A DNA stretch of 64,000 bases from Pseudothauera nasutitermitis (lineage in GTDB: Bacteria; Pseudomonadota; Gammaproteobacteria; Burkholderiales; Rhodocyclaceae): contig NZ_SSOC01000002.1 in the NCBI RefSeq assembly GCF_004801295.1, positions 62,001 through 126,000 on the forward strand. The letters are read 5' to 3'. The translations under genes and the position numbers were made by a program. The first letter of the stretch is position 1. Each line of letters starts with the position of its first letter. Below the pieces are notes generated by a model, which had not been told where the DNA came from, made no database searches, and worked only from the letters and a program-made list of their open reading frames with translations. Positions 41,373 to 54,268 of this stretch are shown piece by piece.

Positions 41373-42047
41373 GTGAAACTACGCCATTCGTTGATCAGCA
41401 TCCCCACCGCGCAGACCTGGCTGGTGGCCCTGCTCTGCCACGCGCCGGACGTGCGTGCGCTGGCCGTGATCCTGCGTCCGTTTTCGGTGCCCGAGGAGCA
41501 GGAGCGCGAGGACGAAACCAGCTGCGCGCTGCAGGCCAGCGGGCACGCCACGCTGACGCTGGATCTGCTGACTCCGCATGAGGAAAGCCGCGACCCGGAC
41601 ATGCGCTTCGCCGTCTCCCAGCTCGCCTTGCGCGCCGAGGGCGTACGCGAGTGGATCGCCCATCAGCCGGGTCTGGGCAAGCTGCCGGTGGGCCTGGTGG
41701 CTTCCGGCACCGCGAGTGCCGCGGCGATCCGCGCGGCGGCCCGTGCGTCCGAGGACTATCAGGCGCTCGCCTGTCAGGGCGGGCGCCCGGATCTGGCCGG
41801 AGTCAAGCCGCTCGGCATGCTGCGTGTGCCCACGCTGATCGTCGCCGGCGGGCAGGACCCGGGGCTGCCGATGCTGCGCCAGTCCTACGAGCACATCGGC
41901 TGCGAGCGCGACTGGCAGGAACTGGCGGATTGCGACGACAGCTTCGCCTCCCCCGCTGCGCAGACCGCCTTCGCCCGTCTTGCCGACGATTGGCTGACCA
42001 GCCATTACGAAGCCGAAGCGCTTCCCGCCGCCTCCGACGCGCCCTAG
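41373..42047 (+). CDS. Alpha/beta-hydrolase-like protein with degenerate catalytic residues
   Basis: A 224-residue protein resembling the dienelactone-hydrolase-like group often encoded near or fused to phosphoribosyltransferases: LTLDLLTPHEESRDPDMRF, GLVASGTASAAAI, QGGRPDLAGVKPLGMLRVPTLIVAGGQD. The usual nucleophile elbow G-A-S-T-G reads A-S-G-T-A, with Gly at the serine position. The usual catalytic His region reads DCDDSF. It probably lacks hydrolase activity. GTG 41373 is the likeliest start; TTG 41307 is possible. Its stop overlaps the convergent binding-protein gene. Confidence 0.65.
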   Translation: MKLRHSLISIPTAQTWLVALLCHAPDVRALAVILRPFSVPEEQEREDETSCALQASGHATLTLDLLTPHEESRDPDMRFAVSQLALRAEGVREWIAHQPGLGKLPVGLVASGTASAAAIRAAARASEDYQALACQGGRPDLAGVKPLGMLRVPTLIVAGGQDPGLPMLRQSYEHIGCERDWQELADCDDSFASPAAQTAFARLADDWLTSHYEAEALPAASDAP

Positions 42048-42934
42048 GGCGCGTTCAGCGCCTCCGCGACCGATTCGACCGCGTTGCGCAGTTCTTCCAG
42101 CGGATCGTTGCCTTCCGCCGGAATGAGCACCGGCACCGCGCCCGCCGCGCGCACCGCCGCATCCAGGGCTGGTGTCAGCGCGCGATGGTGGAGCACCACG
42201 CCGATGCCTTCCGCGCGCAGGCGCTCGCCCAGTTGCGCGGCGGCCTCGTCCGTCCACGCTTCGTCCTCGCGTACGTCGCGGCCGGCCAGTTCCAGGTTGA
42301 AACCGGTGACGAAGTAGTCCAGGCGCTCCGACAGGGTGAATACGACCGGGTTGTCGGCCTGGGCGAAACGCCGGCCGGCGCCGGCGGCCAGCTCCACCAC
42401 TGCGCGCTTGAACGTGGCCAGGCGCCCGGCGATGCCTTCGGCGTCGGCCGGCGACAGGCGGCCCAGGTCGCGTGCGACGACGTCCGCCATGCGGCCGAGG
42501 TTGGTCGGGTCCAGCCAGGCGTACAGGCCGTCGGCCTCGCCGCTGCGCAGCGCCACGCCGGGCAGCGCGCCATCTACCGGACGCGCCGCGTCCACCTCGA
42601 CGACGCGCACGTTGGCGCGCCGCGCGTGCGGATAGAGCACGTCGTCCGCCCACACCGAACGCAGCCCGACCACCGCGTCGGCCTGGCGTGCGGCGGCCTC
42701 GAAGGCCCCTGCCCCACGCCCGCCGAGGAAGGAAGCATGGCGCGTGGGCGGCAGCGTGGCCGGCACCACGCGGGTGATTTCGATGGCGCCGCCTTCCGCG
42801 AGACGGGCGGTGATCGCATGGGCCACCGGATGCGCGGTGAGCACGCGGACGGCCGGCGTGCCGGCAGCGGCGGCCGAGGCGGATGCGCCGGCCAGCAGCC
42901 CGAGCGCGACGAACAGGATGTTCACGGTTTTCAT
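42044..42934 (-). CDS. Divergent ZnuA-like substrate-binding protein, canonical metal ligands absent
   Basis: A 296-residue exported protein (signal peptide 1-23, ASAAAA). It has the cluster-9 metal-binding-protein layout, including GLYAWLDPTNLGRMADVVARDL and a C-terminal helix. One His in PTRHASFLGG could match the first ligand, but the second ligand site reads LYAWLDP instead of HxWLxP and the third reads LSERLDYFV without His. It is the last gene of the eight-gene run and overlaps the permease gene by 4 nt. It may bind another ligand or aid transfer to the transporter. Confidence 0.78.
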   Translation of the reverse strand: MKTVNILFVALGLLAGASASAAAAGTPAVRVLTAHPVAHAITARLAEGGAIEITRVVPATLPPTRHASFLGGRGAGAFEAAARQADAVVGLRSVWADDVLYPHARRANVRVVEVDAARPVDGALPGVALRSGEADGLYAWLDPTNLGRMADVVARDLGRLSPADAEGIAGRLATFKRAVVELAAGAGRRFAQADNPVVFTLSERLDYFVTGFNLELAGRDVREDEAWTDEAAAQLGERLRAEGIGVVLHHRALTPALDAAVRAAGAVPVLIPAEGNDPLEELRNAVESVAEALNAP

Positions 42935-43830
42935 GAGACTTGCCCCTTGAGCGCCGGCACGGTGCCGCGCGCGATGGCCGCGAGCGCGAACAGCGTTCCG
43001 GCGAACAGGATGATGGCCGCGCCCGAGGGCACCGGCAGTGCGAGTTCGATCGGCAGCAGGATGCCGGCCAGCGTGCTGAGCGTGGCGAAGGCCACCGACA
43101 GCCAGAAGAAGCCGCGCAGGGAGCGGCTCAGCAGCCGTGCCGAGGCAGCCGGGATGACCAGCAGCGCACCGACCAGGATGGCGCCGATGACCTTCACCGA
43201 GGCCACCGTGACCACGGTGACCAGCGCGACGAACAGGTAGTCCAGCAGCTTCACGCGCACGCCGCGCACGGTGGCCAGCTGCGCATTGAAGCTGGCCAGC
43301 ATCATGCGGTTGTAGAGTGGCAGCGCCAGCACGGCGACCAGCGCGGCGACCACGGCGAGCACGACCAGATCCTGCCCGTTGACGGTGAGCACCGAGCCGA
43401 ACAGCACGTTTTCCAGGATATGGATGTTGACCCGCCCGGAGAGCAGCAACAGCAGGCTGCCGCCCAGCGCCAGGGATACCGAGAGGAACACGCCGATCAG
43501 CGTGTCCGGGGTGAGCCCGGTGCGGTTGCGCAGGAAATTGAGCAGGATGCCGAACAGCAGGCAGTAGCCGAACAGGCTGCCGTAGGGGCCGGTGTACGGC
43601 TCGCCGAGCAGGATGCCGATGGCCACGCCGGTGAGCGCGGCATGGCCGACCGCCTCGGAAAAGAAGGCGAAGCGCTTGACCACCACCAGTGTGCCCAGGC
43701 CGCCCAGCACCGGGCCGATGATCAGCCCGGCGAGCAGCGCGCTGACCACGAAGCCGTAGGCCATCGACGGCGGCAGCCAGCCGGCCTCCGCCAGACCCTG
43801 CACGAAGACGCGGAAGTTCTCGTAGCTCAC
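42931..43830 (-). CDS. Metal ABC transporter permease (ZnuB/ABC-3 family)
   Basis: A 299-residue membrane protein with eight or so helices: FVVSALLAGLIIGPVLGGLGTLVVVKRFAFFSEAVGHAALTGVAIG, a PDTLIGVFLSVSLALG loop, and KVIGAILVGALLVIPAASARLL. This is the ABC-3 permease for Zn or Mn. GTG at 43830 with AGGAGGG upstream overlaps the ATPase stop by four bases; the long frame to 44109 runs through the ATPase gene and is a shadow. Confidence 0.92.
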   Translation of the reverse strand: MSYENFRVFVQGLAEAGWLPPSMAYGFVVSALLAGLIIGPVLGGLGTLVVVKRFAFFSEAVGHAALTGVAIGILLGEPYTGPYGSLFGYCLLFGILLNFLRNRTGLTPDTLIGVFLSVSLALGGSLLLLLSGRVNIHILENVLFGSVLTVNGQDLVVLAVVAALVAVLALPLYNRMMLASFNAQLATVRGVRVKLLDYLFVALVTVVTVASVKVIGAILVGALLVIPAASARLLSRSLRGFFWLSVAFATLSTLAGILLPIELALPVPSGAAIILFAGTLFALAAIARGTVPALKGQVS

Positions 43831-44675
43831 TGGACTACCCTCCTGTCGCTGCGCGACATCCTCCCCAAGGGCGGGTGAGCGCCCCCGTCGGGCGGCCGGG
43901 CGGGGGCGCTCACTGCCGCCTCCAGCGCCGCAGCGTCCGCTGGTTCGCGGTTCTCCTGCGCCGCCGTGCGCGGGCGCGCGGAGAACAGCGCGAGCAGGCG
44001 TTCCGGCGCCAGCACTTCGCGCGGCGCGCCGTCGAACAGCACGCTGCGGTTCAGCCCGCTGACGCGGTCGGCCAAGCGGCCGACGGCTTCCAGGTCGTGT
44101 TCCACCCACAGCACGGTCACGCCGTCGCGGCGCCAGTCGCGCAGCAGGTGTTCGAACACCGCGAAACCGGCCTCGTCCAGCGCCGCCATCGGTTCGTCGA
44201 GCACCAGCAGGGCGGGATTCGGAATCAGGCTCTGAGCGAGCAGCACGCGCTGGCGTTCGCCGCCGGACAGCGCGCCCATGCGGCGCAGGCGCTTGTCCGC
44301 CATGCCCACGCGGTCGAGCGCGGCGTCGATGTCCGCCATGCCCTCGCGCGGACGGCGCAGGAAGGCCGGACGGCGCTGCGTGGTGGCGCGCATGAAGTCT
44401 TCCACGCTCATCGGCAGGCCGCGGTCGAATTCCAGCGACTGCGGCACGTAGCCCACCGTGCCGGGCGCGCCCGGCCAGTCGATGGCCAGCCGGCCGCGAT
44501 GCGGCATCTGGCCCAGCAGGGCCTTCACCAGCGAACTCTTGCCGCCGCCGTTGGGGCCGACCAGCGCGTGCACGCTGCCGGCCTCCACGCTCAGGCGCAC
44601 GTCGCGCAGGATTTCGGTGCGCCCCAGGGTGAGGCCGACGCCGTCGAAGCGGATGCGCGGGCCGCCCGCCGTCAT
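43827..44675 (-). CDS. Metal ABC transporter ATP-binding protein (ZnuC-like)
   Basis: A 282-residue ABC ATPase. Walker A GPNGGGKSSLVKALL (about 39-53), Q-loop YVPQSLEFD, signature LSGGERQRVLLAQSL, Walker B LLVLDEPMAALDE, switch WVEHD. The C-terminal ~45 residues (AAQENREPADAAALEAAVSAPARPPDGG) form a low-complexity tail beyond the domain. It overlaps both neighbours by four bases. Confidence 0.92.
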   Translation of the reverse strand: MTAGGPRIRFDGVGLTLGRTEILRDVRLSVEAGSVHALVGPNGGGKSSLVKALLGQMPHRGRLAIDWPGAPGTVGYVPQSLEFDRGLPMSVEDFMRATTQRRPAFLRRPREGMADIDAALDRVGMADKRLRRMGALSGGERQRVLLAQSLIPNPALLVLDEPMAALDEAGFAVFEHLLRDWRRDGVTVLWVEHDLEAVGRLADRVSGLNRSVLFDGAPREVLAPERLLALFSARPRTAAQENREPADAAALEAAVSAPARPPDGGAHPPLGRMSRSDRRVVQ

Positions 44676-45613
44676 TGCGCGGCCTCGCGGATGGCGCGTA
44701 CCACGGTGGCCAGGTTGCGCGCGGTTTCGCGTTCGAACTTGTCGATTTCGTATTCGCCGTAGGAGATGTGGGTGAGCGGATAGAGCTGCACGCCGGCCTC
44801 GCGGCGGATGGTGTCCACGTAGGCCGAGGGGAAATCCATCTCCGAGAAGATCACCTTGACGTCCAGGCCGCGCAGGCGGTCGATGGTGCCCTTGAGCTGC
44901 GCCGGGCTGGGTTCGATGCCGTGGGAGGGTTCGACCACGGCGGTGACTTCGATGCCGAATTCGCGCAGCAGGTAGTCGTAGGCGCCGTGGATGGTCGCCA
45001 CGCGGAACTCCGCGTTCGGCACGCCGGCCAGTTCGGCCAGCGCATCGGCGCGCAGTTGGCGCAGGCGGCGTGCGAAAGCGCGTGCGTTGGCCTGGTAGGC
45101 GGCCGCGTTGGCCGGGTCGAAGCGCCCGAGTTCGCGCGCGATGGTGTTCACCTGGGCGATCGACGCGGTCACCGACAGGAAGGTGTGCGGATTGACCACG
45201 GTGCCGGAACCCGCGCGCCCGGCCAGCCCGGTGGCGGCCAGCAGCGGCACGTCGGCGTTGGATTCGATGACCGGCAGGTTCGGTTTCTCGCTGGCAGCAA
45301 TCATGCGTTCGGCGAAATCGTCGTGGCCCACGCCGTTGACCACCATCACGTCCAGCGTGCCGATGCGCTTGATGTCTTCGGCGCGCGGTTCGTAGGCGTG
45401 CGGGTTGAAGCCGGCGGGGATCACCGGCACCACCTCGGCCAGATCGCCGACGATGTTCGCCACGTAGCTGTAGTACGGATGCAGCGTCACGCCGATGCGC
45501 AGCGGCTTGTCGCGTTTCGGCACGGCGGCGAACACGCGGGCCGGCAGCGCGCAGGCCAGGGCCAGCCCGGCCAGCATGCGGCGGCGCGGGAAGGAAGGGA
45601 GAGCGTCGGGCAT
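44672..45613 (-). CDS. Zn/Mn-type ABC transporter substrate-binding protein
   Basis: A 313-residue periplasmic protein with a signal peptide that includes RRRMLAGLALACALPARVFA, possibly Tat-dependent. The cluster-9 metal ligands are visible: PHAYEPR, VVNPHTFLS, TIHGAYDYLL and SEMDFPS. It lacks the His-rich loop of E. coli ZnuA. It delivers metal to the permease encoded next. Start ATG 45613 has GGAG upstream; it is 67 nt after the preceding membrane-protein gene. Confidence 0.9.
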   Translation of the reverse strand: MPDALPSFPRRRMLAGLALACALPARVFAAVPKRDKPLRIGVTLHPYYSYVANIVGDLAEVVPVIPAGFNPHAYEPRAEDIKRIGTLDVMVVNGVGHDDFAERMIAASEKPNLPVIESNADVPLLAATGLAGRAGSGTVVNPHTFLSVTASIAQVNTIARELGRFDPANAAAYQANARAFARRLRQLRADALAELAGVPNAEFRVATIHGAYDYLLREFGIEVTAVVEPSHGIEPSPAQLKGTIDRLRGLDVKVIFSEMDFPSAYVDTIRREAGVQLYPLTHISYGEYEIDKFERETARNLATVVRAIREAAQ

Positions 45614-45680
45614 GGAGACTCCACGTTGAGGCGTCCGCGCGCGGCCGCCGGGTTGGACGGGAAACGGGCCGGCGGCCCGC

Positions 45681-46247
45681 TCAGTGGCGGTGGCGTGTTG
45701 CGCCGGCGTCGAAATGGGTGACCACCTGCTGCCAGCCGCCGTGGACGAGGTATTCGGTATCCAGGCGCGCGGGCGGGGATGCCGAGGGGGAACGGTTGAG
45801 CCAGATGTCGGCTTCGCCGGCATCCGCCGGTCCGGACAGCCGCAGCAGCATCGAGCCGGCGACCTCGGGGGCGGCACTGAGGCCCAGGTAGGCGCTGGCC
45901 GCACCGTGCTCGATCAGCGTCCAGGCATGGTCCCCGCGCCAGGCGGTGCCCACGTCGGCGACGAAGGGCGGCAGCAAGGCCTCGGCGAGTTCCGTCACCG
46001 CAGGCGGCCGATCGCCGAAATCGGCGAGTTCTCCGGGCACCAGGCGCAGGTCGGCGTACAGGCCCTGCTCCGCGGCGAGCAGATCGTCGCGGGCATCCAG
46101 CTGGTGCGCGGCGACCTCGATGCGCTGCGCCGGCGTCTGGCGTGCGCCGATCACCGCTGCGGCCAGCGCCACGATGACGGCGCAGGCCAGCGCGACGAAC
46201 AGTGCTTCATGCCCCGCGCCGGCGGGGCGGACGACTTGTTCCGCCAT
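45681..46247 (-). CDS. Single-pass membrane protein of the metal-uptake operon (DUF6162-like)
   Basis: A 188-residue protein with one N-terminal membrane helix (about 14-36: LFVALACAVIVALAAAVIGA) and a periplasmic region rich in alpha and beta. It contains IWLNRSPSAS and a C-terminus GATRHRH with three basic/His residues that might bind metal. I think it belongs to a family (DUF6162) found beside zinc ABC genes, but that is from memory. ATG 46247 overlaps the previous stop (TGATG). Confidence 0.7.
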   Translation of the reverse strand: MAEQVVRPAGAGHEALFVALACAVIVALAAAVIGARQTPAQRIEVAAHQLDARDDLLAAEQGLYADLRLVPGELADFGDRPPAVTELAEALLPPFVADVGTAWRGDHAWTLIEHGAASAYLGLSAAPEVAGSMLLRLSGPADAGEADIWLNRSPSASPPARLDTEYLVHGGWQQVVTHFDAGATRHRH

Positions 46248-46585
46248 CACTCGATCTCGGCGTGGTCGATTTCCACCACGTGGCCGGGGCCGGCATCGAA
46301 AAGAATGTAGAACTCGCCCTTCGGGCGGTTGAACACCAGCGTGGAGTCGGCGCCCAGCTTGCCGTTGATCAGGATGGTCTCGTCGTAGGCGATGACGTCC
46401 AGGGTGACCCCCGGTGCCTTGCTGCCGTCGGAAAAGCCGCCGGTGCAGCGGATGCGCTGCGCGTCCACCGACTCGCAGGTACACACCGGGTTGTGCGCGG
46501 CGGCGGCGCCCGCCAGCGCGCACAGCAGGCCACCGGCCAGGGCGCGTGCGAGCGTGGCGGATGTGCGGCGGAGGGTGGGGGTCAT
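46247..46585 (-). CDS. Small exported protein, unknown function
   Basis: A 112-residue protein with a signal peptide (to AAAAH, about 29). The mature part starts HNPVCTCESVD and has a further Cys in RIRCTGG, then a beta-rich segment (TLDVIAYDETILINGKLGADST and EFYILFDAGPGHVVEIDHAEIE). The N-terminal His plus CxC could bind a metal such as zinc or copper. Its position inside a metal-uptake operon supports such a role, which is an inference. Confidence 0.75.
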   Translation of the reverse strand: MTPTLRRTSATLARALAGGLLCALAGAAAAHNPVCTCESVDAQRIRCTGGFSDGSKAPGVTLDVIAYDETILINGKLGADSTLVFNRPKGEFYILFDAGPGHVVEIDHAEIE

Positions 46586-47124
46586 GTCGGGTTTCCTCGT
46601 TTGCTGAGCCATTCGATGGTGATCGGCGACGCTTCCGCGAGCGGCAGCGCGGCCTGATGCACGGAGCCGTCCCAACCCTCCAGGGTGATCCACAGTTCCG
46701 CGTCCGCCGTCACGCGCTCGGGAATCGGCAGCGCGACGGACTGGCGATACGGCGAGCCGAAGAAGATGGAACCGGCCGCGCGCAGGTTGCGCGGCTTGCC
46801 GACGCGCAGATAGGCGGCCTTGACCTGTTTGGCGCAGGTGTCGCACAGCGCCAGGGTGAAGCTCTTCGCATAGCCGGCCTCGCCGTTGCGGAACGGCTGC
46901 TCCACCCGCCATTCGGCGAAACGCACCGACCACGGGCCCACGGCGATCTCGCCCAGTTCGCGTTCGCCCAGGCCCTTGGTGCCGCGGTTGAGTTCCTGGC
47001 TGTGGAAGTAGGCGGGCAGATAGAACAGCGGCAGGACGACGAAGACCGCTGACACGCGGAACAACCAGCGCTTCCAGGCCGGTACGCCGGCGCGGCGGGT
47101 GGATGGGGATCTGGCTGTGCTCAC
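46582..47124 (-). CDS. Membrane-anchored periplasmic protein, unknown function
   Basis: A 180-residue protein with one helix at about 18-38 (LFRVSAVFVVLPLFYLPAYF) and a periplasmic domain. LALCDTCAKQVKAAYLRVG contains a CxxC pair; GSIFFGSPYRQSVALPIP and WITLEGWDGSVHQAALPLAE follow. GTG at 47124 overlaps the PepSY stop (GTGA). Not recognised as a named family. Confidence 0.72.
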   Translation of the reverse strand: MSTARSPSTRRAGVPAWKRWLFRVSAVFVVLPLFYLPAYFHSQELNRGTKGLGERELGEIAVGPWSVRFAEWRVEQPFRNGEAGYAKSFTLALCDTCAKQVKAAYLRVGKPRNLRAAGSIFFGSPYRQSVALPIPERVTADAELWITLEGWDGSVHQAALPLAEASPITIEWLSKRGNPT

Positions 47125-48341
47125 CGCGCGCCCTCCGTTTCCAGTTCCGCCACCGAGCCGTCGGGCTCTTCCTCGCGGCGGCGCAGCATGGCGGCGGTGG
47201 CGTGCGCGGTGCGCTTGGTCCAGATCAGCAGGCCGCTCAGCACCATCATGGTGAGCAGCAGGCCGAAGAAGAAATACACCAGCTTCAGCCACAGCCCGGC
47301 GAAATCGCCGGTGTGCAGCGGGCGCATCGACTCGGTGAACAGCTCCAGCGCGGAGCGGTCCGCCACGCGGCGCACGTATTCCACCTTGCCGTTGTACGGA
47401 TTCACGTGCAGGCGCTCGAACAGCAGCGGATAGGCGCCGCGCCCGGCCACCACGATGTGGTCGTAGGCGTTGCCCGGCAGGCTGACGAACATCGGCTGCA
47501 GGCCCGGCAGGTATTCGCTGGCATGCGCGGCGGCCTCGTCCAGGCTGACGATGCGCGGCGGCAGGCCGTCCGGCGTGTAGGGCGCATCCTCGCGCGCCAC
47601 AATGGGCGGAGCACCCTCGGAGGAGATGGAGATCGACAGATCGCCGAGCACCGCCTGCACGGTGAACCACAGCCCGGTGATCGCGATGATCAGGATGAAG
47701 GGAATCGACCAGATGCCCGCGAGGCGATGGAAATCCCCCCAGAACACCCGCGCGCCGTGGCCGAAGCGCAGCCGGGGGCGCAGAAAGCCCCGCCAGAACT
47801 TCTTGTACACCACCAGCCCGGTGATCAGCGAGACCAGCATCGGCAGGCCGAGCAGCGACACCGCGTACCAGCCCAGGTTGAAGCCGTTGGTGAACGGCAT
47901 CAGCAGCCAGCCGTGCAGCGCGCGCACGAATCCGCGGAAGTTGAAGGACGGGTCGGTGCCCTGGATTTCCCCGGTGTAGGGGTTCACGTAGATCGACTGG
48001 CTGGTGCCGTCCGGATTGCCCACCCGCACGCTCAGTGCGAACTGCGACTTCACCGGGCGGGAAATGGACTGCACCACGGATTCCGGGCTGGCGCGGTTCA
48101 CCGCCGCCAGCACCTCGTCGTAGCCCAGCAGCCGCGCGTCGGCGGACGGCGCGCGGGCGCGCACGGCCGGGTCGGCCAGCCAGACGATCTCCTGGCTCAC
48201 CGTGGCGATGGTGCCGGTCAGACAGACGAAGAACATGAAGATCCACAGCGGCAGCGCGGCCCAACTGTGCACCAGGAACCACAGGCGGGCACGCCCCGCC
48301 TTGGGGGCCGCGGGCCTGGCGGCCGGCACGGCGGCGCTCAC
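47121..48341 (-). CDS. PepSY-associated transmembrane protein
   Basis: A 406-residue membrane protein of the PepSY/PiuB type. It has about four transmembrane helices (PLWIFMFFVCLTGTIATVSQEI near 30; SLLGLPMLVSLITGLVVYKKFWRGFL; GIWSIPFILIIAITGLWFTV; LVYFFFGLLLTMMVLSGLLIW) with periplasmic PepSY domains between. Conserved His residues in RALHGWLL and FHRLAG may bind haem. Such proteins accompany metal- or siderophore-uptake systems, possibly as reductases. GTG 48341 has GGAGG upstream; it is the first structural gene of the operon. Confidence 0.85.
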   Translation of the reverse strand: MSAAVPAARPAAPKAGRARLWFLVHSWAALPLWIFMFFVCLTGTIATVSQEIVWLADPAVRARAPSADARLLGYDEVLAAVNRASPESVVQSISRPVKSQFALSVRVGNPDGTSQSIYVNPYTGEIQGTDPSFNFRGFVRALHGWLLMPFTNGFNLGWYAVSLLGLPMLVSLITGLVVYKKFWRGFLRPRLRFGHGARVFWGDFHRLAGIWSIPFILIIAITGLWFTVQAVLGDLSISISSEGAPPIVAREDAPYTPDGLPPRIVSLDEAAAHASEYLPGLQPMFVSLPGNAYDHIVVAGRGAYPLLFERLHVNPYNGKVEYVRRVADRSALELFTESMRPLHTGDFAGLWLKLVYFFFGLLLTMMVLSGLLIWTKRTAHATAAMLRRREEEPDGSVAELETEGAR

Positions 48342-48481: not shown

Positions 48482-48497
48482 GGCCGAAAACTCGGCC
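48482..48497. repeat. Short hairpin in the same leader
   Basis: GGCCGA (48482-48487) and TCGGCC (48492-48497) pair around AAAC. It abuts the 15-bp repeat on one side and the 26-bp palindrome on the other, giving three stems in tandem. Confidence 0.6.
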
Positions 48498-48547
48498 CTC
48501 AAAAGACATGTCGTTTGAGGGCGCAAAAACGCGCACTTTGTTACATA
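48496..48547 (-). promoter_or_regulatory. Shared leader/promoter element, copy A (metal-uptake operon)
   Basis: On the plus strand: a 26-bp near-palindrome (48496-48521) centred on GACATGTC with arms CCCTCAAA and TTTGAGGG; then GCAAAAACGCGCACTT; then CTTTGTTACATA. The same three blocks occur in the same order upstream of the Fur-family gene. Read on the minus strand, TATGTAAC could be the -10 region and the palindrome would lie in the early transcript, 155 nt upstream of the PepSY start. Confidence 0.6.
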
Positions 48548-48718
48548 GACTTACAAATGGCGGGCCTTGTGGGAATCCCGGCGGGGATCGCTCTCGATGC
48601 GGCACCCCATGCCTTTCAGCAGTGCTGTGGCAGCGGGTCACAATCGGCCGAGCCGGCAGCGGACAAGGTATCCGGAGGTCGGCAGGCGCCGCCTGTGCTG
48701 GCCCGGTGCTTGGAGCCC

Positions 48719-49276
48719 CTACTCCGCGTCCGGGCCGCGTGCCTCGGCGGCATGCGCGCAACCGTTCGCGCAGACGCCGCGCACCAGCACTTCGTAATCG
48801 CCCAGCGCGAAGCCCTGGCCGCCGACCAGGCGGCTCAGCAGTACATCCAGCGAATCGTTATGGAAGGTGCGTTCCGTGCCGCAGGCCTCGCACACCACGC
48901 GCACGGTCGCCTGCGGCAGGGCGCCGGCACGCGCATACACCCGCCGCCCTTCCTCGAAGCGGCTGGACAGCAGCTTGGCGGCGTCGAGCTGACGGAGCGC
49001 CGAATACACGCTCGACAGGGAGATGTCGTTGCCTTGGTCGAGCAGCGCGCGCATCACCTGATCGGCCGACAGGACCGTCTGCCCGGCTTCCAGGAACGCC
49101 GCCAGCACCTGCAGGCGCGGCTGCGTGACCCGCAGGCCGGCGCGCAGCAGGGTTTCCCGCGCGGTGGCGAGGCGCGAGGATGGCCGTCCCGACGCCCCCC
49201 GCTCGTCGATGGCCGTTGCGCGCGGGCGGATGCGCCCTCCCCGCATGGTTGAAATTCCGGCCGGCAATACGCTCAT
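48719..49276 (-). CDS. Fur-family metal-dependent repressor, probably Zur-type
   Basis: A 185-residue Fur superfamily protein. After a ~50-residue N-terminal extension come the winged helix (GLRVTQPRLQVLAAFLE, SADQVMRALLDQGNDISLSSVYSALRQL, about 58-110) and the dimerisation domain with VVCEACG and VCANGC cysteine sites for structural zinc. The HHDH metal-sensing motif of iron Fur is not evident. It lies upstream of and on the same strand as the metal-uptake operon, which it probably controls. ATG 49276 has GAGG upstream; starts further inside the extension are possible. Confidence 0.8.
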   Translation of the reverse strand: MSVLPAGISTMRGGRIRPRATAIDERGASGRPSSRLATARETLLRAGLRVTQPRLQVLAAFLEAGQTVLSADQVMRALLDQGNDISLSSVYSALRQLDAAKLLSSRFEEGRRVYARAGALPQATVRVVCEACGTERTFHNDSLDVLLSRLVGGQGFALGDYEVLVRGVCANGCAHAAEARGPDAE

Positions 49277-49323
49277 GGAGACCTCGATGGTGCGTTGGAC
49301 AGCGAAGCCGCGAAATCTGCAGC

Positions 49324-49384
49324 TCTCGTAGACATGTCGTTCGAGACCGGCAAAACGCGCACTTGAAACACACTTTATTACATA
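49324..49384 (-). promoter_or_regulatory. Shared leader/promoter element, copy B (Fur-family gene)
   Basis: Plus-strand order: TCTCG (49324-49328), GACATGTC (49331-49338), CGAGA (49342-49346), then GCAAAACGCGCACTT (49350-49364) and CTTTATTACATA (49373-49384). Sixteen bases around GACATGTC differ from copy A at one position, yet the flanking pairing arms differ. An 11-bp insertion with a second CACTT separates the last two blocks compared with copy A. It lies 48 nt upstream of the start codon. Confidence 0.6.
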
Positions 49385-49554: not shown

Positions 49555-49676
49555 GGGAATAGGCAGGAATGCGCGTTTCTGAGCGCGGGGTGGCGGCCAT
49601 GGGCAGACGCCGCGTGCCCACCGGATCGCCGGGCAGACGGCCCGACGATCCTTTTGGCTTGCCGCCTGGTATGAGT

Positions 49677-49695
49677 GTGAATGATAATCCTTCCC
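49677..49695 (+). promoter_or_regulatory. Fur-box-like site upstream of fecI-like gene 1
   Basis: GTGAATGATAATCCTTCCC matches 14 of 19 bases of the E. coli Fur consensus, with the central AATGATAATC intact. It lies 32 nt upstream of the sigma factor start, so iron repression is likely. Confidence 0.6.
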
Positions 49696-49726: not shown

Positions 49727-50263
49727 ATGCCGCCCACCGCGCCCACTCCCCGGCACACCCTGCACACCCTGTATTCCGAGCACCACAGCTGGCTGCAAGG
49801 CTGGCTGCGCAAGAAGCTGAGCTGCTCGCAGCAGGCCGCCGATCTCGCCCAGGACACCTTCCTGCGCCTGCTGATTTCCGGCCGGCTGCCGGAGCCGGAA
49901 CGCTCGCGGGCCTACCTCACGCAGATCGCCAAGGGGTTGCTGGTGGATCAGTACCGCCGCCGGCAGCTTGAGCAGGCCTACCTGGAGGCGCTGGCCCGCG
50001 TACCGGAATGCCATGCGCCCTCGCCGGAAACCCGCGCGCTGGTGATCGAGACCCTGGTGTGCATCGACGCCCACCTGGGCCGGCTGCCGCAGATCGTGCG
50101 GGAAACCTTTCTGCTGTCGCAGTTCGACGGCCTGAAATACTCCGAAATTGCCGAACGCCTGGGCATCGCCACGGCCACCGTGCGCAAGTACATGCTCAAG
50201 GCGAGTCTGGCCTGCTACGCGGCGCTGGAGGAATCCCCCGCCTCCGGCACGCCTGCGCGCTGA
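49727..50263 (+). CDS. FecI-type ECF sigma factor 1
   Basis: A 178-residue ECF sigma factor. Region 2: [32 protein letters not shown]; region 4: LPQIVRETFLLSQFDGLKYSEIAERLGIATATVRKYM. It is the iron-starvation (FecI) type, activated from the cell surface through the FecR protein encoded 6 nt downstream. ATG 49727 gives normal length. Confidence 0.92.
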   Translation: MPPTAPTPRHTLHTLYSEHHSWLQGWLRKKLSCSQQAADLAQDTFLRLLISGRLPEPERSRAYLTQIAKGLLVDQYRRRQLEQAYLEALARVPECHAPSPETRALVIETLVCIDAHLGRLPQIVRETFLLSQFDGLKYSEIAERLGIATATVRKYMLKASLACYAALEESPASGTPAR

Positions 50264-50269
50264 ACCGCC

Positions 50270-51232
50270 ATGTCTTCCGCCCACGTTGCCGCCGCCAGCG
50301 CAGATGCCCTCTTCCACCAGGCGCTGGCATGGCAGGTCACGCTGTGGTCGGGCGAGGTCAGCGATGCCGAACGCGCCGAATTCGAACGCTGGCTGCATGC
50401 CGATCCCGCCCACCAGGCGGCCTGGGGAAAGGCGCAGAGCCTGCACGCCCGCCTTGCCGACCTGCCCGCCGGCCTCGGCGCGCAGGTACTGCGCGCGCCA
50501 CCGCCACGGCTTGGCCGCCGCCGCGCGCTCGGCATGCTGGGCTGGCTGGTAGGCGGTGCCCTGGCGCTGCAGGGCGCGCGGCAGACGCCGCAATGGCAGC
50601 TCGCCACGGCGGACCACGCCACGCGGCGCGGCGAACGGCGCCAACTGGTGCTGGAGGACGGCACCCGCATCGATCTGAACAGCGCAAGCGCCGTCGACAT
50701 CCACTACGACGATGAGGTACGGCGCATCACCCTGCGGCACGGCGAGATCTTCATCGCCACCGCCAAGGACCCGGCCCGGCGTCCCTTCACGGTGCGCACC
50801 GGGCATGGCGAGATCCAGGCGCTGGGCACCCGTTTCCAGGTCCATCAGGAATCCGCCCATGTGCACGTCGCCGTCTTCGACGGCGCGGTGGCCGTGCGTC
50901 CCGCCCAGGGGCCGGAGCGGCGGCTGGATGCGGGCCGGCAGGCCTACTTCGATGCCAGCGGCGTGCAGGTCGAAACGGCGGCGGAGCCCGCCGCCATCGC
51001 CTGGACGCGCGGGCAGCTGGTCGCCGAGCGTCTGCGCCTGGACGAGTTCATCGCCCAGCTGGCGCGGCACCGCCCGGGTTTCCTGCGCTGCGATCCGGCC
51101 GTCGCCGAACTGACCATCTCCGGCGTCTTTCCGCTCGACGACACCGACCGCGTCCTGCGCGCGCTGACCGAGGCCCTGCCGGTCCGGCTGAGCCAGGTGA
51201 CCCCATACTGGGTTACCGTAACGCCCCGTTGA
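50270..51232 (+). CDS. FecR-type sigma regulator 1
   Basis: A 320-residue FecR protein. N-terminal DUF4880 (ALAWQVTLWSGEVSDAERAEFERWLHADPAHQAAW), a transmembrane helix at about 85-102 (RRRALGMLGWLVGGALALQG), and the periplasmic FecR domain (RQLVLEDGTRIDLNSASAVDI; LGTRFQVHQESAHVHVAVFDGAVAV). It receives the signal from the STN domain of the TonB receptor and controls the sigma factor. Confidence 0.92.
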   Translation: MSSAHVAAASADALFHQALAWQVTLWSGEVSDAERAEFERWLHADPAHQAAWGKAQSLHARLADLPAGLGAQVLRAPPPRLGRRRALGMLGWLVGGALALQGARQTPQWQLATADHATRRGERRQLVLEDGTRIDLNSASAVDIHYDDEVRRITLRHGEIFIATAKDPARRPFTVRTGHGEIQALGTRFQVHQESAHVHVAVFDGAVAVRPAQGPERRLDAGRQAYFDASGVQVETAAEPAAIAWTRGQLVAERLRLDEFIAQLARHRPGFLRCDPAVAELTISGVFPLDDTDRVLRALTEALPVRLSQVTPYWVTVTPR

Positions 51233-51650: not shown

Positions 51651-51687
51651 CCCCGCTCCCAAAAAAAACACGGCGGCGGCGTAGCAC

Positions 51688-51734
51688 TTTTTCCGTTTCG
51701 TTCGGAAAGGAAGGTATCCCCCCATCGCGGGGGG
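51688..51734 (+). promoter_or_regulatory. Conserved receptor leader 1: T-tract/CGTT element plus hairpin
   Basis: TTTTTCCGTTTCGTTCGG at 51688-51705, followed by a C6-ATCGC-G6 hairpin (51718-51734), lies 75 nt upstream of the receptor start. Receptor 2 has the same arrangement. This may be the FecI-dependent promoter and a leader stem. The identity of the -35/-10 parts is inferred. Confidence 0.45.
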
Positions 51735-51762: not shown

Positions 51763-54229
51763 ATGATGCCCCACCCCACCGCCGCCCGCCCCGCGCGCCG
51801 CGCGCTCCATCCCGCCCCGGTCGCCCTGGCCGTGCTGCTCGCCTGCACCGCCCTCGCCGGCCAGCCGCGCCCGGCGCATGCGCAGGCCACCCAGACCGCG
51901 CAGCGCTACGACATTCCCGCCGGCCCGCTCGACCAGGCACTGAACCGCTTTGCCGCCGAGGCCGGGATTCTGCTGACCATCGATGGACGCCTCACCGCCG
52001 GCAAGCGCAGCCCGGGGCTGCGTGGTGAAGCCGGCATCGCGCAGGCCCTGCAGCGCTTGTTGGAGGGTACCGGGCTGGAGGCGTACGAAGGCGACAGCGG
52101 CTATCAGTTGCGGCGCACGCCTTCGGTTTCCGGCGGCGAGACGGTGCTCGGCACCGTGCAGGTCAAGGCGGCTTCCCTGGGTTCCGCCACCGAAGGCAGC
52201 GGCAGCTACACCACGCGCGCCACCAGCACCGCCACCCGCCTGCCGCTGTCGCTGCGCGAGACGCCGCAATCGGTCAGCGTGGTCACGCGCCAGCAGATGG
52301 ACGATCAAGGGCTGGAACACATTGCCGACGTACTTCAGCAAACCCCCGGCATCACCGTCAACCGCGACAACACCGAAGGCTACAGCTTCTATGCGCGGGG
52401 CTTCCAGGTCGAGAACTTCCAGTTCGACGGCGTGGCCAGTCTGGCCACCGCAGGCGGAAACGTGCGCGACAACTACAGCATCGCCGATTCGGCCATCTAC
52501 GACCGGGTGGAGGTGCTCAAGGGCGCGACCGGGCTGGTCAACGGCGCGGGGCTGCCTTCCGGCGTGATCAACATGGTGCGCAAGCGCCCCACCGCGGACT
52601 TCCAGGGGCATGCCTCGGTCGGCGTCGGCTCCTGGGACCACTACCGGGCGGAAGTCGATCTTTCCAGCCCGCTGGCCGAAAGCGGCGCGATCCGGGGCCG
52701 CGTGGTCGGCGCGGCCCAGCACAACCGCAGTTTCATCGAACACCTGAAGAATCGGCAGGAATTGTTCTACGGCATCGTCGAGGCCGATCTCGCCCCCGCC
52801 ACCATCCTGTCGGTGGGCTTCGACGTGCAGCGCAACCGCAACGACGCCAGCAGCAACAGTCACCTGCCCGCCTTCTTCTCCGACGGCTCTCCCGCGAAAT
52901 TCTCGCGTTCCACCAATGCGGCCGATGTGTGGGCCGAGCGCAACCACGATACCCAGCGCATGTTCGCCACGCTGGATCACAGCTTCGGCAGCGGCTGGAA
53001 CCTGAAGGCGACCCTGAATCAACGCAAGTACCAGTCGCGCGAGATCATCGCCGGGATGACCATGGCCACCATCGACCCGGTCACGCACAGCGTGGCGCAC
53101 GGCTTCTATGCCGGTGGCGCGGCCCGCTTCCATACCGACACCAAGGAAAAGGGCCTGGACCTCCAGCTGTCCGGAAGCTATTCCCTGTTCGGCCGGGAAC
53201 ACCAGATCGTGCTGGGTTACGCCAACGCGCGCACCAATGCGGTCTCCAGGCGCTGGGATGGCGATACGGACGCCCTGATTCCCGACGCCTTCAACTGGGA
53301 CAACCGCGCCACCGAGCCGGCTTTCTATGACTGGTGGTCGACCTTCGACGTGAAGGCGCGCCAGAAGATCGGCTATGCCGCCACGGTGTTCGAGGCGACG
53401 GAGCGTCTGTCGCTGATCCTCGGCGCCCGCAACACCGATTACTCGTGGAGTCTGGACAGCGTCAACGCCAACGGCGTATCCAGCCGCACGGCCACCAAGG
53501 TTTCCGGCGAAGTCACGCCCTATGCCGGCCTCACCTTCGACGTCGATGCCTGGCACACGGTTTACCGACATCTTCAAGCCCCAGGCCTACAGCTACGACG
53601 CCAACGACCGGCAGCTGGATCCGCTGACCGGCGAGAGCTACGAGATCGGTGCCAAGGGCAGCTATTACGGCGGCCGGCTGAACGCCAGCGCAGCGCTCTT
53701 CCGGCTCGAACAGGACAACTACGCCATCAGGGACCCGAGCGGCGCGGCGCGGCCCGGCGGCGGCGTTGCCTACGTGGCCATACAAGGGGTGACGACCAAG
53801 GGCCTGGAACTGGAGGTGAGCGGCGAGCCGCTTCCCGGCTGGCAGCTGAACGCGGGCTTTACCTACATCCAGCCGCGCGATGCGGACGGCCAGCGCGTCA
53901 GTACCACGCAGCCGGAGCGCACCTTCAAGCTGGCCACCATGTACCGCCTGCCCGGCGCCTGGAAGCACATCCGCCTCGGCGGCAACCTGCAGTGGCAGAG
54001 TTCGACTCATTTCACCCAGACCATCGCCGGCACGCCGCGGCGCTTCGAACAGCCCGCCTATCTGCTGGCCGGGCTGGTCGCCAGCGCCGATCTGGCCGGC
54101 AATCTCAAGGCCACGGTAAGCATCAACAACCTCTTCGACAAGAAGTACTACTCCGGCATCGGCAACTACAACGCCGTGTACTGGGGTACGCCGCGCAACG
54201 TCATGGCCAACCTGCGCTACGAGTTCTGA
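51763..54229 (+). pseudogene. TonB-dependent siderophore receptor (FecA-like transducer), frameshifted
   Basis: The frame opening at 51763 encodes a signal peptide, an STN signalling domain (about 45-120), a plug and most of the barrel, up to FDVDAWHTVY. At about 53563-53566 the reading moves to another frame, which continues TDIFKPQAYSYDANDRQLDPLTGESYEIGAKG... to a normal C-terminus (NLRYEF) at 54229. Comparison with receptor 2 (VYGSYTSIFKPQ) implies loss of about 11 nt. Either a real inactivating deletion or a sequencing/assembly error. Unbroken, it would be about 820 residues. Confidence 0.85.
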
Positions 54230-54242
54230 GGCCTGCCCTTCC

Positions 54243-54268
54243 GCCCGGCCGGCCATGAACGGCCGGGC
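54243..54268 (+). terminator. Hairpin after TonB receptor 1
   Basis: CCCGGCCG (54244-54251) and CGGCCGGG (54260-54267), with G54243-C54268 closing the stem, form a 9-bp stem with an 8-nt loop. No T-tract. Confidence 0.5.

Follow-up and report, generated by a model that had tools for sequence, protein, structure and literature searches.

A 64,000-nucleotide stretch of the Pseudothauera nasutitermitis contig NZ_SSOC01000002.1 (hereafter the window) carries two similar short sequences, one upstream of a gene for a Fur-family protein and the other upstream of an eight-gene uptake operon, which raises the question of what reads this element and what it controls. By sequence comparison we propose, with a probability of about 0.7, that the element is a promoter together with its initially transcribed region, belonging to a new subclass of the promoters read by FecI, an iron-starvation extracytoplasmic function (ECF) sigma factor. 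A subclass of this type is ordinary in kind; what is unusual is the preservation of the region after the start. In the open-licence literature, which defined the scope of our search and excluded subscription papers, no report of the element was found.

A repeated element in the window

The two copies, A and B, lie 826 bp apart and are both oriented leftward, with 86% identity over 35 ungapped nucleotides between positions 48504-48538 and 49330-49364. Copy A (48498..48555, minus strand) reads TGTAAG-TCTA-TGTAAC-AAAGTGCGCG-TTTTT-GCGCC-CTCAAACGACATGT in the leftward direction, with TGTAAG at 48550-48555 in the −35 place, TGTAAC at 48540-48545, a T-run at 48525-48529 in the −10 place and CTCAAACGACAT...TGAG at 48498-48519. 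Copy B (49324..49382, minus strand) reads TGTAAT-AAAGTGTGTTTCAAGTGCGCG-TTTT-GCCGGT-CTCGAACGACATGT, with TGTAAT at 49377-49382 in the −35 place, a T-run at 49352-49355 and CTCGAACGACATGTCTACGAGA at 49324-49345. From the CTC of copy B to the ATG of the Fur-family gene is 69 nt, and from the CTC of copy A to the GTG of the operon, a start chosen by eye, is 178 nt. A sequence-only reading of the window had reported three shared blocks, whose positions and order we confirmed in both copies, flanked by paired arms that differ in sequence; the arms are likewise present, as an inverted repeat with 93% complementarity in copy A (48495-48522) and as TCTCG/CGAGA in copy B. The block CTTTRTTACATA is shared as reported, but its register differs: within the TGTAA repeat it falls on the second unit in copy A and on the first in copy B.

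By itself, CGACATGTC is unremarkable (2 found versus 0.68 expected). The two-block pattern, on the other hand, occurs in the 4.7 Mb of the own genome solely at these two sites, with no match for the reversed control. In its exact form it had no match in 398 other genomes of the order, and its confinement to the own genome among the 399 is explained by a pattern that is too strict. When a collection of 84,980 species, which perhaps lacks the own genome, was scanned for an exact pattern, 10 stretches were returned, all from Rhodocyclales (Azoarcus, Thauera, Azonexus, Dechloromonas, Rhodocyclus and one Rhodocyclaceae metagenome-assembled genome). Searches that allowed mismatches revealed a third copy, C.

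A sequence-only model, R1, was built from copies A, B and C; at E 0.05 it had matches in 9 of 199 family genomes, some of them by chance. With a model built from 17 copies (R2), which scores copies A and B at 56.7 and 50.1 bits, 14 of 395 family genomes matched at E 0.01; in three of these the matches lie within coding sequences and were rejected. At E ≤1.5e-5, R2 finds 23 copies in 11 of the 395 genomes, comprising six in the own genome, eight in G924 and one in each of nine others, though the scores of many of the 23 are flattered by training-set membership, with L135-L140 standing outside that set. Weak matches at L071, L141, L142 and L119 (of G021) were put down to chance and lie within coding sequences; a match of only 24 nt at L072 was also judged to be chance, and G024 has a single weak partial match (E 0.015, 16 bits). 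R2 found no match at L035, L036, L037 and L039, which lie upstream of the fpv-like operon in the Azospirillum/Cereibacter set. With copy C and six strong copies in its own genome, the element is more than a local duplication, and its recurrence in Rhodocyclales, at homologous loci and elsewhere, agrees with the proposal of a regulatory element shared by the regulator gene and the operon.

The copies have a common layout, in which TGTAAC in the −35 place is followed by a second TGTAA 10 bp later, by GxCCTTTTT in the −10 place and then by CTCRAACGACAT-N6-TGAG. The motif TG[TCA]AA starts 36-37 nt upstream of CTC in 22 of 25 copies, the second GTAA 10 bp further on is present in most copies, and the T-run ends about 5 nt upstream of CTC. 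While CTCRAACGACAT is almost invariant, the 6 nt that follow it are variable, after which TGAG is again conserved. Conserved bases extend about 37 nt upstream of CTC with near-fixed spacing, an arrangement that fits a promoter. A co-directional gene follows 17 of the 25 copies, nearly all of these genes being iron- or TonB-linked, in several genera.

Resemblance to FecI-read promoters

The element reads like the E. coli fecA promoter (GGAAAATAATTCTTATTTCGATTGTCCTTTTTACCCTTCTCGTTCGACTCATAG), which has GAAAAT 37 nt upstream of its CTC. When R2, which was built without fecA, was run unfiltered on 12 kb of the E. coli fec region, the fecA promoter ranked first of 10 matches, on the right strand and without gaps, at an E-value of 0.07 that is rough, as are such R2 values generally. 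This match appears persuasive at the predicted place and not so genome-wide.

A 26-nt matrix covering the −10 through CGACAT gave a combined p of 7e-8 for 30 regions before TonB-receptor genes including fecA, and of 1e-6 without E. coli, compared with 0.24 on the reverse strand. With two near-duplicates removed, the 28 remaining regions gave p 3.3e-7, with 25% of regions at p ≤0.05, versus p 0.11 and 5% of regions for 110 control upstream regions. The −10 part of the matrix alone gave p 1.6e-4. Single TonB regions that are closer than average include L217 (TGTCCTTTTTGAAATCTCGTTCGAC), L214 (TTCTCGAACGAC) and L086 (TTCTCGTGCGAC), and W84 has CTCGCTCGACATAGC compared with CTCGTTCGACTCATAGC in fecA.

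The element also keeps company with the sigma factor. Using the FecI of the window as query, we found strong hits in all 11 element genomes (best E ≤3e-46; 4 to at least 40 matches at E 0.001), versus FecI-clade sigmas in 5 of 20 selected family genomes that lack a strong element (Fisher p 7e-5, kinship ignored); 15 of these 20 had no R2 match in the 395-genome scan and five were checked separately. According to passages of PMC8768829, the FecI-type sigma HxuI of P. aeruginosa raises fpvG-K, fpvC-F and the Fur homologue fur2, and passages of PMC9249621 describe mutations downstream of the E. coli fecA start that strongly lower transcription.

Several points weigh against a FecI-type assignment. 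The fecA match lacks genome-wide significance, and it drops out when 329 kb are scanned with default filters. At the right distance for a −35, the element has TGTAAC, unlike the GGAAAAT or A-tracts before TonB genes, and this departure from known FecI promoters makes it a candidate subclass instead of a standard member. The downstream 12 nt of the matrix alone reach only p 0.063, and 8 of the 25 copies have no co-directional gene behind them. Numbers of sigma factors and elements do not run in parallel, with at least 40 FecI-like matches versus six elements in the own genome, and 18 FecI matches and no element in G001. Copy I70 (L087) has next to it a sigma gene from another clade, and there is no sigma gene near copy G68 within the stretch examined. 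Lastly, the published HxuI motif did not fit when 32 regions were compared with single-base shuffles (lowest p 0.026).

Genes next to the element

The operon behind copy A (42044..48341, minus strand) comprises eight genes, with Pfam matches, in order, to PepSY_TM, DUF6162, ZnuA, ABC ATPase, ABC-3 and ZnuA, and two small genes between the PepSY_TM and DUF6162 genes. Against PDB 6ru4/6r3z ('Probable adhesion protein'; we take 6r3z to be FpvC) the first of the ZnuA-fold proteins reaches 478 bits, versus 38 bits against ZnuA (2osv). In kind and order the genes equal the eight of P. aeruginosa fpvGHJK-fpvCDEF, as listed in PMC6954188 and PMC8768829, with the counterparts of FpvH and FpvJ assigned by position only. 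Passages of PMC6954188, PMC8768829 and PMC10866019 ascribe to the P. aeruginosa genes the periplasmic release of iron from pyoverdine. Judged by gene order and binding-protein scores, the operon is fpv-like, with ferri-siderophore iron and not zinc as its predicted cargo. The sequence-only reading had taken it for a metal- or zinc-uptake operon, and the zinc/Zur interpretation was dropped because the operon matched fpv. These eight genes also appear in the annotation of Azospirillum plasmids, and that of a Cereibacter plasmid has an extended form of the set.

Divergent beside the operon are fecI-like and fecR-like genes, followed by a TonB-receptor gene. The fecI-like ECF sigma gene (49733..50263, plus strand), which is divergent from copy B, scores above the cut-off of PRK12528 and below that of the FecI equivalog; the fecR-like gene (50270..51232, plus strand) scores 250 bits with the FecR equivalog, whose cut-off is 385. 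A possible FecI-type promoter (CACTTTTTCCGTTTCGTTCGG; 51680..51712, plus strand) precedes the receptor gene, with a p of 0.067 that is weak alone. Upstream of fecI, at 49676-49695, the sequence AATGATAATC at 49680 looks like part of a Fur box when set against the consensus. The receptor reading frame (51763-54258) is apparently broken near 53.5-53.6 kb, with the C-terminal part continuing in another frame, and the TonB receptor of L062 is likewise split into two open reading frames.

The fec genes of the window belong to a longer series, since G000:C2:111733-151800 (window 49733 to the end and beyond) contains eight fecI-like genes in a row, 4 to 8 kb apart and most with a TonB-receptor gene. 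Apparent FecI-FecR fusions of about 430-470 aa occur at L062:10646-11944, L088:2278-3696, L092:2587-3876 and L138:2184-3482 (Pfam was run on the L062 protein); these fused genes lie upstream of a TonB-receptor gene, with the element after the receptor. Small genes that look toxin-antitoxin-like by eye adjoin fec clusters or the element at L137:5290-5945, L207 and L217.

Behind copy B is the Fur-family gene (48719..49276, minus strand), which encodes a protein of 185 aa that matches Pfam FUR and falls below every NCBIfam cut-off. By eye, the protein (48722-49276) lacks the histidine-rich motif usual in Fur and has SLSSVY in the recognition-helix place, as in Azoarcus proteins.

Alternative explanations

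The element might instead be an RNA leader, in which a CTCR...YGAG hairpin presents the loop AACGACAU to a protein, a metal or a small RNA and the upstream part is just its promoter. Most copies can form the stem, with 88% of cells paired compared with 40-56% for slid partners; two-sided changes exist, as in copies B and Q74, which have G-C for A-U; and the N6 before TGAG is free to vary. Covariation is nevertheless no higher than in shuffles, 66 to 95 of 500 of which equalled the measures for CTCR/YGAG, RNAalifold predicted no pairs on 17 copies, the mean folding z was −0.88, Rfam had no match in the window, and conservation reaches far upstream of any start. The hairpin with covarying arms that the sequence-only reading had suggested found no support in these comparisons, and we regard a leader of this kind as unlikely. 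A short inverted repeat acting in DNA or RNA is possible. Six gene-less copies have a second, GC-rich hairpin just after the element (L062:8015-8060, L082:4155-4216, L088, L092, L137 and L138), approximately ACCGCCGGG...CCCGGCGGT; four of these were folded, and paired changes between copies C and U138 were seen by eye. No terminator turned up when copy C was scanned for one, and that the second hairpin marks a short RNA is a guess.

A different activator or repressor could bind the TGTAAC-N4-TGTAA repeat at a promoter read by an unrelated sigma factor, making the fecA likeness a coincidence. Such a protein would account for the 10-bp direct repeat that many copies have at the −35 place and the TonB upstream regions lack; it would leave unexplained both the co-occurrence with FecI and the enrichment of the −10 and downstream part before TonB genes and not in controls, and we consider it rather improbable. 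Still less credible is an operator through which the neighbouring Fur-like protein controls its own gene and the operon, one of the options in the sequence-only reading. The regulator gene and the operon do have the element in common, a 22-bp near-palindrome is present, and Fur-like genes also occur in the operons behind copies E66, F67 and G68. Close relatives of the protein (266-333 bits) are found in just 3 of the 11 element genomes, however, with all other best scores at 105 bits or below, and for this reason the protein was dropped as a general reader of the element. Moreover, the left half of the palindrome is far better conserved than the right, and conserved bases run well past it. That the element is a mobile or recently duplicated repeat with no regulatory role we find barely plausible, given its place before co-directional iron- or TonB-linked genes in several genera and the single copy in most carriers.

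Proposed mechanism

If the element is a FecI-type promoter, TGTAAC and GxCCTTTTT would occupy its −35 and −10 places in each copy, and transcription would begin at CTCRAACGACAT or slightly upstream of it and continue into the Fur-like gene (copy B) or the fpv-like operon (copy A). Under iron starvation, with ferri-siderophore on the receptor, a FecI-type sigma would recruit RNA polymerase to the element, and the machinery for ferri-siderophore reduction and iron import would be produced together with the local Fur-like protein. The second TGTAA and the inverted repeat may have roles of their own. We propose that the downstream block is the counterpart of the post-start region of fecA. E. coli FecI requires sequence downstream of the fecA start for a reason left open in passages of PMC9249621, where a step such as open-complex formation is suggested. 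A natural promoter set that is best conserved in the post-start region would make this question testable by comparison and a few reporters. The analysis further moves the assignment of the operon from zinc to ferri-siderophore iron, and it points to a promoter class common to genomes that are very rich in FecI paralogues.

Comparison with known systems

The upstream regions of fecA-type TonB-receptor genes in the same genomes resemble the element in having a T-run and then a TCG-containing block, with matches enriched, and differ in their A-tract at −35 and far less conserved downstream block. In P. aeruginosa, the published HxuI motif is unmatched in the element, and fur2 can be compared with the Fur-like gene of the window by kind only; control of fpvGHJKCDEF and fur2 by HxuI/PvdS, as described in passages of PMC8768829, nonetheless means that iron-starvation sigmas act there on targets of the same kinds. 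The FecI-read fecA promoter of E. coli has GGAAAAT where the element has TTGTAAC, lacks the TGTAA repeat and CTC/GAG arms at that spacing, and overlaps a Fur box. It shares with the element a −35 at equal distance and CCTTTTTnCCnTCTCR followed by CGAC in register, is the top R2 match in 12 kb, and, according to passages of PMC9249621, needs its downstream region, the part that is best preserved in the element.
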